Shown here: positions 44,541 to 51,935 of the stretch, piece by piece
Numbering within the stretch: the stretch's first letter is position 1
How the letters are laid out: the number at the start of each line of letters is the position of its first letter
NCBI RefSeq assembly: GCF_024498195.1
Contig: NZ_CP101824.1
Span: 1,860,001-1,924,000 of the forward strand
Source: Halovivax cerinus
GTDB lineage: Archaea > Halobacteriota > Halobacteria > Halobacteriales > Natrialbaceae
DNA length: 64,000 nucleotides
Reading direction: 5' to 3'
Made by a program: the position numbers and the translations under genes
The notes under the pieces: model-generated
Database searches by the model: none
Told to the model about the DNA's origin: nothing
Seen by the model: only the letters and a program-made list of their open reading frames with translations

Positions 44541-46388
44541 ATGGCATCAGATGCGAGCGAGACCGGGGCGGACGGGTTCGTGCCGGTCGTGGACGCTGCG
44601 GAACTCGAATCGGAGGGGCGGACACTCGTCACGCCCGAGGGGACGGCGATCGCGCTTTTTCACCACGAAGGGGAGGTGCGGGCGGTGGACAACCGCTGTC
44701 CGCACATGGGGTTCCCGCTGTCTGCGGGCACGGTCGACGAGGGCATCCTCACCTGTCACTGGCACCACGCGCGGTTCGAACTGTCCTGCGGGGACACGTT
44801 CGACCCGTGGGCGGACGACGTGCGGACGTACCCCGTCGAGATTCGAGACGGGACGGTCCACGTCGACCCGAACCCGCCGCTCGATCGCCCGCCGGCCGAT
44901 CACTGGGCTGACCGGCTGGAGAGCGGCTTACAGGAGAACCTGCGACTCGTCGTCGCGAAGGCGACGATCGGGTTACTCGACGCCGGCGTCGACCCGCAGG
45001 ACCCGATCACGACGACGCTCGAGTTCGGTACGGCGTATCGCGACGACGGCTGGTCGTCGGGGCTGACCATCCTCGGTTGCATGCCTAACGTACTGGAACC
45101 CCTGGCGCCCGAGGACCGAAAACGGGCGTTGTACACCGGCGTTCGACACGTGGCGGCCGACTGCGCGGGCCAGCCCGCCACATTCGCCCAGCCGTCCTTC
45201 TCGACAGCCGACGTCTCGCTCGACCGGCTTCGGTCCTGGTTTCGCGACTGCATCGAGGTCCGCGATCGGGACGGTGCAGAGCGCTGTCTGCGGACCGCCG
45301 TCGCGGCCGGGTACGACGACGCGGCCCTCGCGGACGTCGTCTTCACCGCGGCGACGGATCACCCCTACCTCTCGACGGGCCACACGCTCGACTTCGCGAA
45401 CAAGGCGTTCGAGAGCCTCGACGCGGTAGGGTGGCCGGACGGTGGGCGGGTCGGAACGGGCGACTCAGCGACTGTCGCCGCCAGTGGTGACGGCCTCGTC
45501 GCGGACACCCTCGCCTCGCTGGTCGATCCACTCGCGAGCGCGACGCGCAGCGACGAGACCTCGTCGTGGCGCCAGCCGGTCGACCTCGTCGCCCTGCTCG
45601 CCGAGATCTACGGCGGCGACGTGACCGACACGAGCGGGCTGGAGACGCTCGTCGAATCCGGCCAGGACGAGTCGTGGTCCCGACCGGATTCCGTCAGGGA
45701 AACGCTCCTCGGCGACGATCCGGAGGCGATCGTCGCGGCACTCGGCGACGCGGTGCGAAACGGCGCCACGTCGGCGCAACTCGCGGCCGAAGTCGCCCGC
45801 GCTGCCACGACGCGCGTCGCTCGGTTCGGTACCGCGAACGAGTTCGGCGACTGGAACACCGTCCACCACACGTTCACCTACGCGAACGCGGTCCACCAGG
45901 CCGCGCGACGGACCGACGCGGTCGCGCTCTACCGTGGCGTCTTCGACGCGGCGACGAGCGTCTACCTCGATCGGTTCCTCAACACGCCACCGGCGCCGAT
46001 TCCGGAGCCCGGCGACAACGAGACCGGTCGTGATCCGGACGCCATTCTCGACGACCTCCTGGCGACCTTCGACGAGGAGGGCCGGGTAAACGAGGCGGGC
46101 CGACTCGTCGCCGAATTCGTCGACTGTGGCGGTGACGAAGACGCCCTCCGGCGGACGCTCGGCCACGGGCTCCTCCGAGAGGACGCCGGTTTCCACACCC
46201 TCCAGAACGTGGAGGCTGCGTTCCGACAGCACACCCTCGCCGAGACCGAGGCAGACAGCCGCCTCCCGCTGATCGCGACGGCTCGCTACCTGGCGGCCCA
46301 CTTCCCGACACGGCGCGAGGCCGAACAGACGTTCTCGATCGCCGCCCGCCTGAACCGTGGCGAGCGAATCCACGAGGCCGAGGACTGA
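44541..46388 (+). CDS. Rieske 2Fe-2S domain fused to a large helical domain
   Basis: This 615-residue protein has a Rieske ferredoxin-like domain at about residues 10-105. The cluster ligands are all present: Cys 53 and His 55 in RCPHMGFPL, Cys 72 and His 75 in TCHWHHARF. Residues of about 115-615 form a long helical region with repeated His-containing segments (TGVRHVAADCAGQ, ATDHPYLSTGHTLDFANKAF, DWNTVHHTFTYANAVHQAA, GFHTLQNVEAAFRQH). No ring-hydroxylase catalytic domain is seen. It has no signal peptide, so it is cytoplasmic. Function is unknown; the His clusters suggest a second metal site (inference). It lies between ilvA and an M20 peptidase. Confidence 0.85.
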   Translation: MASDASETGADGFVPVVDAAELESEGRTLVTPEGTAIALFHHEGEVRAVDNRCPHMGFPLSAGTVDEGILTCHWHHARFELSCGDTFDPWADDVRTYPVEIRDGTVHVDPNPPLDRPPADHWADRLESGLQENLRLVVAKATIGLLDAGVDPQDPITTTLEFGTAYRDDGWSSGLTILGCMPNVLEPLAPEDRKRALYTGVRHVAADCAGQPATFAQPSFSTADVSLDRLRSWFRDCIEVRDRDGAERCLRTAVAAGYDDAALADVVFTAATDHPYLSTGHTLDFANKAFESLDAVGWPDGGRVGTGDSATVAASGDGLVADTLASLVDPLASATRSDETSSWRQPVDLVALLAEIYGGDVTDTSGLETLVESGQDESWSRPDSVRETLLGDDPEAIVAALGDAVRNGATSAQLAAEVARAATTRVARFGTANEFGDWNTVHHTFTYANAVHQAARRTDAVALYRGVFDAATSVYLDRFLNTPPAPIPEPGDNETGRDPDAILDDLLATFDEEGRVNEAGRLVAEFVDCGGDEDALRRTLGHGLLREDAGFHTLQNVEAAFRQHTLAETEADSRLPLIATARYLAAHFPTRREAEQTFSIAARLNRGERIHEAED

Positions 46389-46576
46389 CCGTTCGGTGAC
46401 CCCAGCCGCTCGCTTGCCCCGACCGGGAGTCCTTTTTGTTGGGACCGCTTCACACGCGCCATGGCTATACCCTTCACCGGGAAGTCCGCTCCGGACGCAT
46501 CGAGAGCCGTGACCCCACTGCGCCCGACCCCACTTCGATCGACCCTGCGTGGACGATCGCGACCGAGGTGGCGACG

Positions 46577-47938
46577 GTGACCGCGGACGCGCTCGCCGCG
46601 ACGATCGACGAGACCGAGGCGTCCTACCGGGACGACCTGTTCGACCTGCTCGCTCAGCCCAGCGTGAGCTCGACGGGTGACGGCGTCGACGAGTGCGCCT
46701 CGTTGCTGTCCTCGATCCTCGACCGACGGGGCTTCGACGAGGTACGCCAAATCGAGACGGACGGCTACCCGATCGTCTACGCGGAGCGGATCGTCGACGA
46801 GTCGCGTCCAACCGTCGTCTTCTACGGGCACTACGACGTCCAGTCGCCGTGGCCCGACGAGGAGTGGTCGTCGCCACCGTTCGAGCCGACCGTGCGCGAC
46901 GAATCGATCTATGCCCGCGGCAGCGGCGACAACAAGGGACAGCACCTCGCGCACGCGTTCGCCGTCGACGCGCTGGACGCGGCCGTCGACGGACCGCCGG
47001 TGAACGTCACGATGCTCGTCGAGGGTGGCGAGGAGAGCGGTAGCGTCGGCCTGATCGAGTACCTCACCGGCGACCCGGTCGACATCGCGGACGCCGACCT
47101 CGTCTACGTCTCCGACGGACCGATGCACGCCTCGCGACGGCCGACGATCATCTACGGGAACCGCGGGATCATCTCGGTCGAACTGACGCTCCAGACCGCG
47201 AACGCGGACCTCCACTCCGGCAACTTCGGCGGTCCCGTGCCGAACGCGGCGAACGAACTCGTCTCACTGCTCGCATCGATGTACGACGGCGACGAGGTGA
47301 CGATCGACGGCTTTCACGACGCTGTCGCGATCGCACCCGACGACCGCGATATGGCCCGGCAGATCCCGTTCGACGAGGCGACGCTCGCTGCCGACCACGG
47401 GATCGACCGTCTCGCGACCGATCGGTCGTACTACGAGCGACTCCTGCTCGAACCGACGCTCACGATCAACGGCGTCTCGAGCGGGTACGACGGCGAGGGG
47501 ATGAAGACCATCATTCCGAACCGGGCGCGGGCGAAGATCGACTGTCGGCTGGTCCCCGACCAGGACCCCGCCCGAATCTTCGATCGCATCCGCGCCCACG
47601 TCGCGACCCGCCATCCCGACGTCGAGGTGACGAATATGGGGATGGCGCCACCGATGAAGACGCCGCTCGACACGCCCGCCGCTGACCCGCTCGCCGATGC
47701 GATGGCCGAGGTCTGGGACGTTGAGCCGGTCGAGATGCCGCTGCTCGGCGGGAGCCTCCCGGCGGCGTACTTCCGATCCGAACTCGACGTTCCCGTCCTC
47801 GTCGTACCGTACGCGAACCCCGATCAGGGGAACCACTCGCCGGACGAGCACCTCGACCTGGCGTGCTTCCGGAACGGCATCGAAACGACCGCCCGGTTCC
47901 TGACTCGCCTCGGCGAGAACACCGGGGACGATCCGTAA
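46577..47938 (+). CDS. M20-family metallopeptidase
   Basis: This 453-residue dinuclear zinc hydrolase has metal ligands in VVFYGHYDVQ, GSGDNKGQ and VEGGEESGS, with further ligands in VYVSDGP and GNHSPDEHLD. A dimerisation domain is inserted in the middle. It is a carboxypeptidase or dipeptidase-like enzyme; the substrate is unknown. The start is taken as GTG 46577 (TADALAATIDETEAS). A 39-codon frame from ATG 46461 ends overlapping this GTG and may couple translation. Confidence 0.88.
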   Translation: MTADALAATIDETEASYRDDLFDLLAQPSVSSTGDGVDECASLLSSILDRRGFDEVRQIETDGYPIVYAERIVDESRPTVVFYGHYDVQSPWPDEEWSSPPFEPTVRDESIYARGSGDNKGQHLAHAFAVDALDAAVDGPPVNVTMLVEGGEESGSVGLIEYLTGDPVDIADADLVYVSDGPMHASRRPTIIYGNRGIISVELTLQTANADLHSGNFGGPVPNAANELVSLLASMYDGDEVTIDGFHDAVAIAPDDRDMARQIPFDEATLAADHGIDRLATDRSYYERLLLEPTLTINGVSSGYDGEGMKTIIPNRARAKIDCRLVPDQDPARIFDRIRAHVATRHPDVEVTNMGMAPPMKTPLDTPAADPLADAMAEVWDVEPVEMPLLGGSLPAAYFRSELDVPVLVVPYANPDQGNHSPDEHLDLACFRNGIETTARFLTRLGENTGDDP

Positions 47939-48007: not shown

Positions 48008-48508
48008 ATGGAGGTCCACGTCTACTACGAGGGCGACGACGACCCGAAGAAGTGTACGGCTCGGCGGCTAGAACGCTTCGACGAGACGATACTCCATCGC
48101 TCGATGGGGGGCGTGCCCTACGGCGTCGTTCTCAACCCACACGCGGAGCAGGCCCTCTCGCCGGCGGATCGTGAGGAGGCGATCACCACTCTCGTCGCCC
48201 TCGATTGCTCGTGGGAGTCCGCCGGCGAGGCCGCATTCTCGATGCCCGGCGAACACCGTGCGCTCCCGTTCCTCGTCGCGGCCAACCCGGTCAACTTCGG
48301 TCGGCCGTTCCGGCTGACCACCGTCGAAGCGCTCGCGGCGGGCCTGTGGATCCTCGGCGACCCGGACCACGCCGAGGATCTCCTCGAGCCCTTCCGCTGG
48401 GGCGAGACCTTCCTCGAACTGAACGAAGAGCCCTTGCGACGGTACGCCGACTGTCGGGACTCGACCGAGGTGGTGGCCGTCCAGGACGAGTATCTCGTCG
48501 AGGAGTGA
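48008..48508 (+). CDS. tsr3: 16S/18S rRNA aminocarboxypropyltransferase Tsr3
   Basis: This 166-residue protein has the Tsr3 (DUF367) signatures: [13 protein letters not shown] near residue 12, [10 protein letters not shown] near residue 64, and [19 protein letters not shown] near residue 86. A glycine-rich helix follows ([15 protein letters not shown]). Tsr3 transfers the 3-amino-3-carboxypropyl group from S-adenosylmethionine to a modified uridine in small-subunit rRNA. The size is typical of archaeal Tsr3 (about 165-180). Confidence 0.93.
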
Positions 48509-51479: not shown

Positions 51480-51935
51480 TCACCTCGCCAACTCGTTTTT
51501 CGCCTCGCGGATCTCGGCCTGCGTCTCCCGATCGCCGTCGACACCCGCCAGCGCTTCGGCCGCTTCGAGCGTTCGAACGCCACTGTCCAGGAACGAGAGC
51601 ACGTCGCCCGCGTAGGCGTAGACCATGTAGTCGTCGCTCATCACGTCGACGATCGCGTCGGGGCCGAGCCCCTGTGCCCGGAGATCGAGGAGGTATCGAA
51701 CGAACTTCCGCTCCGGGCAGCCGCAGTAGGGGTTGTCGTCGCAGTCGCAATCGAGGAAGTCACCCGCGAAATCGAGCACCCGATCGCGAGTCGCGTCGTC
51801 TAATTTCTCCAGTCCCTCCCCCTGGAAGAGCAAGTCGAGCGTCGCTCCCTTGAACGCCCCCTTCGGTACGTTCGTCTCGAGCTGGGAGGCGAGCTGGCGG
51901 TGATTCTTGACGTAGATCTTGTCGGTGATGGCCAC
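51480..51935 (-). CDS. DUF5814-like haloarchaeal protein
   Basis: This 151-residue protein has a cluster of Cys residues (LDCDCDDNPYCGCPERKF) that may form a small metal site, and helical segments (KFVRYLLDLRAQGLGPDAIV). It resembles the haloarchaeal DUF5814 family, which is also found attached to helicases. Function is unassigned. It converges on the RHH gene and sits 160 bases from tRNA-His. Confidence 0.75.
   Translation of the reverse strand: MAITDKIYVKNHRQLASQLETNVPKGAFKGATLDLLFQGEGLEKLDDATRDRVLDFAGDFLDCDCDDNPYCGCPERKFVRYLLDLRAQGLGPDAIVDVMSDDYMVYAYAGDVLSFLDSGVRTLEAAEALAGVDGDRETQAEIREAKNELAR

Follow-up and report, generated by a model that had tools for sequence, protein, structure and literature searches.

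The window, as the whole stretch of DNA analysed is called here, comprises 64,000 nucleotides from the 3.9 Mb genome of the halophilic archaeon Halovivax cerinus, and contains a gene whose product joins a Rieske [2Fe-2S] domain to a long helical domain. The start and the length of this 615-residue fusion agree with those of its relatives. The features of the gene, and the two genes downstream of it that are considered here, are as follows (positions are those of the window).

44541..46388, + strand: Rieske-helical fusion gene, 615 amino acids (open frame and translation; ATG start, stop included)
44580..44834, + strand: Rieske [2Fe-2S] domain of the soluble ferredoxin type, residues 14-98 (PF00355, PDB relatives)
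44697..44705, + strand: cluster ligands C53 and H55 (CPH), invariant in 101 relatives
44754..44765, + strand: cluster ligands C72 and H75 (CHWH), invariant in 101 relatives
44880..46364, + strand: all-helical C-terminal domain, about residues 114-608 (AlphaFold2; no sequence match)
45357..45413, + strand: motif 1, D273-H274-x6-H281-x2-D284...E291, with H281 a candidate metal ligand aligned with the second questin-oxidase His
45438..45485, + strand: loop modelled with low confidence, residues 300-315, missing in most relatives
45837..45887, + strand: motif 2, N433-E434-x2-D437-W438-x3-H442-H443-x5-N449, with H443 (or H442) a candidate ligand at the third questin-oxidase His
46179..46205, + strand: motif 3, E547-D548-x3-H552-x2-Q555, falling on the questin-oxidase HxxK, which in BTG13 is His374-Lys377
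46299..46316, + strand: H587-x4-R592, noted for its conservation
46562-47938, downstream: M20 peptidase gene, flanked by the fusion gene and the Tsr3-type gene
48008-48508, downstream: Tsr3-type ribosome biogenesis gene (PF04034 and PF04068)

Upstream of the fusion gene lies a gene for a PLP-dependent enzyme (PF00291), and a DUF5814-family gene is found at 51480-51935. In many Natrialbaceae the Rieske fusion gene is followed at a short distance by the Tsr3-type gene. The M20 peptidase gene has no match at locus L034, where the other neighbours are syntenic, and thus looks inserted or lost. Among the loci of Halobacteria no conserved functional partner gene was seen.

The N-terminal part of the protein carries both marks of a Rieske [2Fe-2S] protein, namely the CxH...CxxH ligands and a PF00355 match, which spans residues 14-98 and scores 57 bits (cut-off 20.3; E 1.8e-15). 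In an alignment of 101 full-length relatives C53-P-H55 and C72-H-W-H75 do not vary, so that the four ligands counted by an earlier note on this DNA, made from the sequence alone, are all in place. The closest relatives of the Rieske part in the PDB are the ferredoxins of naphthalene, biphenyl, and toluene oxygenases, on which the N-terminal 110 residues superpose with TM-scores mostly of 0.76-0.90 when normalised to the ferredoxin. In two relatives (L057 and L085) the Rieske motif lacks its first half or has it out of frame.

The remainder of the protein is modelled by AlphaFold2 as helices throughout, with a pLDDT of 92.9 and a pTM of 0.92 when the C-terminal domain is folded alone. The full protein gives a pLDDT of 92.3 and a pTM of 0.91, the latter value implying a confident prediction of how the Rieske and helical domains are placed relative to each other. 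In the full-length model pLDDT falls below 50 at residues 302-315, and residues 300-307 are a gap in at least 93% of the relatives. No family of Pfam, NCBIfam, or PADLOC was matched by the C-terminal ~500 residues, no PDB chain was matched by sequence or profile, and a Foldseek comparison of the model with viral models returned nothing at E <= 0.001 and nothing informative. Carboxymuconolactone decarboxylase (CMD) and MgsA_C were matched weakly by 5 and 18, respectively, of 70 family members, and these similarities have been set aside as generic to helical proteins since the window protein matches neither; 2r9g, which had been a further reason to consider them, reached a probability of 0.47 in the Foldseek search with the C-terminal model.

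The catalytic domain of ring-hydroxylating Rieske oxygenases is of the SRPBCC type. The partner domain of the fusion is not of that type, being all-helical and without a Pfam match, and the PDB matches to Rieske oxygenases are limited to the Rieske part. The earlier note had described a Rieske domain fused to a helical domain of about 500 residues and of unknown function, the partner being neither a ring hydroxylase nor a cytochrome b-type protein. The frame, the coordinates, and the confident all-helical model agree with the first of these statements, and the second is borne out by the lack of both an SRPBCC-type catalytic domain and a cytochrome b. Of the steps that it had proposed, a search with the C-terminal 500 residues alone found no Pfam, NCBIfam, or PDB sequence match, and structure prediction for this part gave the confident all-helical model (pLDDT 92.9) described above.

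Within the helical domain, H281, H552, and H587 are present in 70 of 70 close relatives and H274 in 68; D273, D284, E547, and Q555 are likewise found in all 70, and R336, E339, W343, R425, N433, D437, W438, R582, and R592 are among the further residues kept without exception. Positions 442/443 read HH in 78 of the 101 sequences, HN in 18, and LH in 5, such that at least one His is present in every one. In a wider set H281, H552, Q555, and the acids are retained in all members but one degenerate planctomycetal paralog (L175), in which Q281, R443, P552, and L555 mark the loss of several candidate ligands; nearly all Rieske-fused members have R592, and H587 is confined to the close family. The repeated, conserved-looking His motifs of the earlier note are therefore real, as H281 and H552 attest, but they are not of equal weight: H274 and H587 were at first considered as ligands and were then rejected, several wider-family members having lost these residues. 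In 17 bacterial relatives, for example L079, L080, L083, and L088, H443 is replaced by Asn with H442 retained (DWDTVHNTLTAANALH), a natural variant that bears on which of the two histidines matters. Three Rieske-less relatives from Chloroflexota (L145-L147), of about 490 residues, have lost most of the candidate ligands.

A possible identity for the helical domain is offered by its fold. When the C-terminal model was compared with the PDB by Foldseek, the sole match with a probability above 0.5 was chain A of 8yxs (AflY), entitled ‘non-heme iron dioxygenase from Aspergillus brunneoviolaceus’, with a probability of 0.95, an E-value of 0.064, and TM-scores of 0.35-0.39, values that make it weak as a fold match; BTG13 and PaD were absent among the matches listed. 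Questin oxidases form a family of iron enzymes from fungi and bacteria, and a profile of bacterial questin-oxidase-like proteins recovers 8yxs (AflY) together with 8z4q (PaD, a hydroquinone dioxygenase) and 7y3w/x/y (BTG13), which identifies the Foldseek match as a member of this family. Taken by itself the match to AflY is suggestive of kinship and not proof of it. A direct profile comparison (hhalign) between the window family and questin oxidases gave a probability of 1%, and PF14027 was matched neither by the window protein nor among the families found in its 70 relatives. By the tests made, the window protein is outside PF14027 as well as outside the ring-hydroxylating Rieske oxygenases.

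A bridge between the two families emerged from searches of Planctomycetota and Chloroflexota with the window-family profile. One group of intermediates (L179-L182) consists of planctomycetal Rieske-fused proteins with CPHEGY motifs, and a further Rieske-fused pair (L177 and L178) is closer to the main family than these. A second planctomycetal group (L184-L188 and L192) is Rieske-less and secreted-looking, with an N terminus resembling a twin-arginine (Tat) signal and a domain that belongs to no Pfam family. Against the window-family profile the planctomycetal Rieske-fused proteins score 77-98 bits and the Tat-signal Rieske-less proteins 19-38 bits; in HMM-HMM comparison with a profile of the main and mid groups the E-values are 1e-35 for the Rieske-fused group and 1.7e-16 for the Tat group. 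Among 21 intermediates the near-invariant positions are H73 (19/21), H182, H306, H417, and K420 (19/21), besides some Gly, Ala, Leu, Ile, and Thr, and the two exceptions at H73 and K420 are Gly and Gln, as in the L177/L178 pair.

When the Tat and Rieske-fused intermediates were combined and compared with bacterial questin oxidases, scores of 41.5 (E 1.7e-4) in local and 37.8 (E 4.5e-7) in global mode were obtained, against 26.6 and 20.5, respectively, for the best of 40 block-shuffles and an E-value of 0.18 or worse for reversed questin oxidases. Neither intermediate group was clearly above the controls when compared alone, so it is the combined profile that carries the bridge. When the profiles are aligned globally, all four questin-oxidase histidines and the HxxK lysine are paired with the His and Lys of the intermediates. 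One might object that the likeness is a matter of convergence among helical repeat proteins, and that the fusion represents an oxidoreductase that is new and unrelated, or else a scaffold for redox sensing. The weak fold match and the absent direct profile match are what this would predict, and the chance-level matches to MgsA_C (18/70) and CMD (5/70) show how readily such helices fit generic profiles; nevertheless, the intermediate profile places all four His together with the Lys in matching order, at scores above the reversed and the 40 shuffled controls, and the sole credible fold match, which was obtained independently of the sequence comparison, falls in the same family. Convergence is accordingly regarded as unlikely, and the profile comparisons point to a remote kinship, beyond the controls and via the intermediates, with the questin-oxidase superfamily in a wide sense.

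If this kinship holds, the active site of the window’s branch appears to have been altered. Profile alignment via the intermediates places H281, H443, and H552 of the window family on questin-oxidase His 2, 3, and 4, and by homology to questin oxidases the conserved histidines would be expected to cluster in space. The first His is replaced by a residue of Ser/Gly type, and the lysine of HxxK, which is Lys in the intermediates, is Gln555 in 70 of 70 close relatives. Counted in the alignment this lysine is residue 377 of the BTG13 chain, and Lys377 of BTG13 is the carboxylated lysine ligand of the iron, in a site made up of four His and this Lys. This residue set is thus incomplete in the window family, where three His are kept, the first is lost, and Gln stands in place of Lys. 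The first-His correspondence is itself uncertain, because in bacterial questin oxidases this His aligns at BTG13 residue 55, one helical turn before His58, the position at which 7y3x differs from 7y3w. The loss of the first His and the change from Lys to Gln co-occur on the branch leading to L177 and the main groups; such a joint loss would be expected if both residues served one site, but it represents a single event. The newly invariant acids D273, D284, E339, D437, and E547 lie mostly in the His motifs.

These same changes admit another reading, in which a protein of questin-oxidase descent has dispensed with its catalytic metal, and its conserved pocket, made up of H281, D284, H552, Q555, and the acids, takes up an organic substrate or a different cofactor, to which the Rieske cluster passes electrons directly, in reductase or quinone-like chemistry. 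The passage from four His and a Lys to a smaller set with Gln is how the loss of a site would look, as is the Asn found at position 443 in 18 of 101 sequences, and the invariant Trp, Asp, and Arg residues suggest a substrate pocket. Yet H281 and H552 are kept in 70 of 70 close relatives and a His at 442/443 in 101 of 101, and acids in the very same motifs have become invariant, observations that are better explained by remodelling of a site than by its loss; moreover, the Rieske domain has been kept almost without exception. Loss of the metal is thus considered doubtful, though it is the foremost of the alternatives to a remodelled metal site.

The distribution of the family is broad. The helical domain was found in 36 of 61 sampled relatives, in 13 of 247 genomes taken from the archaeal phylum, in 31 of 201 genomes of Chloroflexota (a few being of the Rieske-less distant kind), and in 25 of 246 genomes of Planctomycetota, with further carriers among Armatimonadota, Lentisphaerota, Cyanobacteriota, Pseudomonadota, and Bacillota. 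Many Halobacteria carry the fusion, as do bacteria from seven other phyla, and with few exceptions the proteins of the main family have the Rieske domain attached. In Chloroflexota PF14027 itself is rare, being present in 1 of 301 genomes. Fusion genes are found as tandem copies on two planctomycetal contigs or genomes, with L172, L189, and L193 on contig G547 and L175 and L190 on G517. In a quick tree, rooted on the distant Tat group and with long branches flagged, the Halobacteria come out as a single group lying within the bacteria, a placement that tentatively suggests transfer of the fusion from bacteria to Halobacteria. Public annotation describes the family members as ‘Rieske (2Fe-2S) protein’ only.

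Gene neighbourhoods in bacteria provide some indication of chemistry. A gene for an alpha/beta-hydrolase lies on the same strand and within 2 kb of the fusion gene at 13 of 86 loci. Ten of the 13 belong to Chloroflexota and the others to Alpha- and Betaproteobacteria and a cyanobacterium, whereas no locus from Halobacteria among the 86 has such a neighbour; some Chloroflexota loci also carry genes for a luciferase-like monooxygenase and an amidase. The hydrolase neighbours would suit an oxidation that is followed by a hydrolysis. The neighbourhoods also bear on the notion that the fusion serves a separate oxygenase as its Rieske ferredoxin, the helical domain being a docking or stabilising module only. 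This would be consistent with a Rieske domain that is closest to ferredoxin components, but no gene for a Rieske-type oxygenase was seen to travel with the fusion gene at the loci examined, where some bacterial neighbours are instead hydrolases, amidases, or flavin monooxygenases, and polar and charged residues of the helical domain are strictly invariant across phyla, as is seen in catalytic domains. A mere docking role is therefore viewed as very improbable.

The architecture, its conservation and distribution, the intermediate bridge, and the residue correspondence by profile alignment, all shown by computation, lead to the proposal of a soluble Rieske-fed oxygenase or oxidoreductase built on a remote, remodelled questin-oxidase-like helical scaffold, a reading to which a probability of about 0.5 is assigned. 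In this proposal the N-terminal Rieske domain, of the dioxygenase-ferredoxin type, would take electrons from a separate reductase, and its cluster would hand them on to an active site in the C-terminal domain, which would represent a remote Rieske-fused branch of the questin-oxidase-like helical non-heme iron superfamily. His281, His443 (or His442), and His552 would hold three of the four His positions of that superfamily and presumably bind metal; with the first His lost and Gln555 in place of the lysine carboxylated in BTG13, one of the newly invariant acids could complete a two- or three-His/carboxylate site. Activation of O2 for the oxidation of an organic substrate is the most likely chemistry, and in some bacteria the oxidised product may pass to the alpha/beta-hydrolase. 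The more elaborate scenario of a separate class of Rieske-fed non-heme iron oxygenases, on a helical questin-oxidase-type rather than SRPBCC scaffold, in which a three-His (or two-His-carboxylate)-plus-Gln site arose after Rieske fusion and the class spread from bacteria to Halobacteria, is put forward tentatively, as a possibility somewhat short of even odds.

The second metal centre fed by the Rieske cluster that the earlier note had envisaged thus gains from the three conserved His that fall on questin-oxidase His positions, and is weakened by the remoteness of a link that needs intermediates and by a site that has been altered. A clear match to a characterised enzyme family, which the note had held would speak against its view, was not found by sequence, and by fold there was only the weak match to AflY (probability 0.95). 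Its suggestion of an undescribed oxidoreductase stands with respect to the literature searched, in which queries on questin oxidases (with iron and Rieske), BTG13, AflY, and SAR202 Rieske proteins turned up no paper on this family. A SAR202 pangenome paper discusses COG4638 ring-hydroxylating dioxygenases, and its sole mention of Rieske concerns the alpha subunit of these enzymes (PMC6946804).

The findings suggest that there is a widespread, undescribed kind of Rieske-fed oxygenase whose catalytic part does not resemble that of the known Rieske oxygenases, and the main domain of this widespread family is nonetheless without a Pfam or NCBIfam model. In the Rieske oxygenases known to us, the cluster feeds an iron held in an SRPBCC-type domain. 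If the proposal is correct, the fusion would provide a second, unrelated fold with a fused Rieske domain, implying that this module for electron delivery has been combined with O2-activating scaffolds on more than one occasion, and would offer spectroscopists a new two-centre enzyme. The intermediates, moreover, would allow a direct test of how a site of four His and a carboxylated Lys is converted to another ligand set.

Among known systems, the soluble Rieske ferredoxins of naphthalene, biphenyl, and toluene dioxygenases and monooxygenases share the fold and the motif of the N-terminal 110 residues, but they are stand-alone proteins of about 105 residues, whereas in the window protein the Rieske domain is followed by some 500 fused residues. 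The alpha subunits of ring-hydroxylating oxygenases resemble the fusion in uniting, in one chain, a Rieske domain and an enzyme domain that possibly holds non-heme iron; their catalytic domain is of the SRPBCC type, in contrast to the all-helical domain found here. With the questin-oxidase family (PF14027; BTG13, AflY, and PaD) the window protein shares an all-helical scaffold and, through the intermediates, the alignment of three conserved His, yet questin oxidases are without a Rieske domain, and the positions held by Gly/Ser and Gln555 in the window family are occupied in them by a further His and the HxxK lysine. The planctomycetal Rieske-fused proteins (L179-L182) and the Tat relatives (L184-L188 and L192) have the same helical domain as the window protein but keep the four His and HxxK, the Tat relatives differing further in that they carry no Rieske domain.
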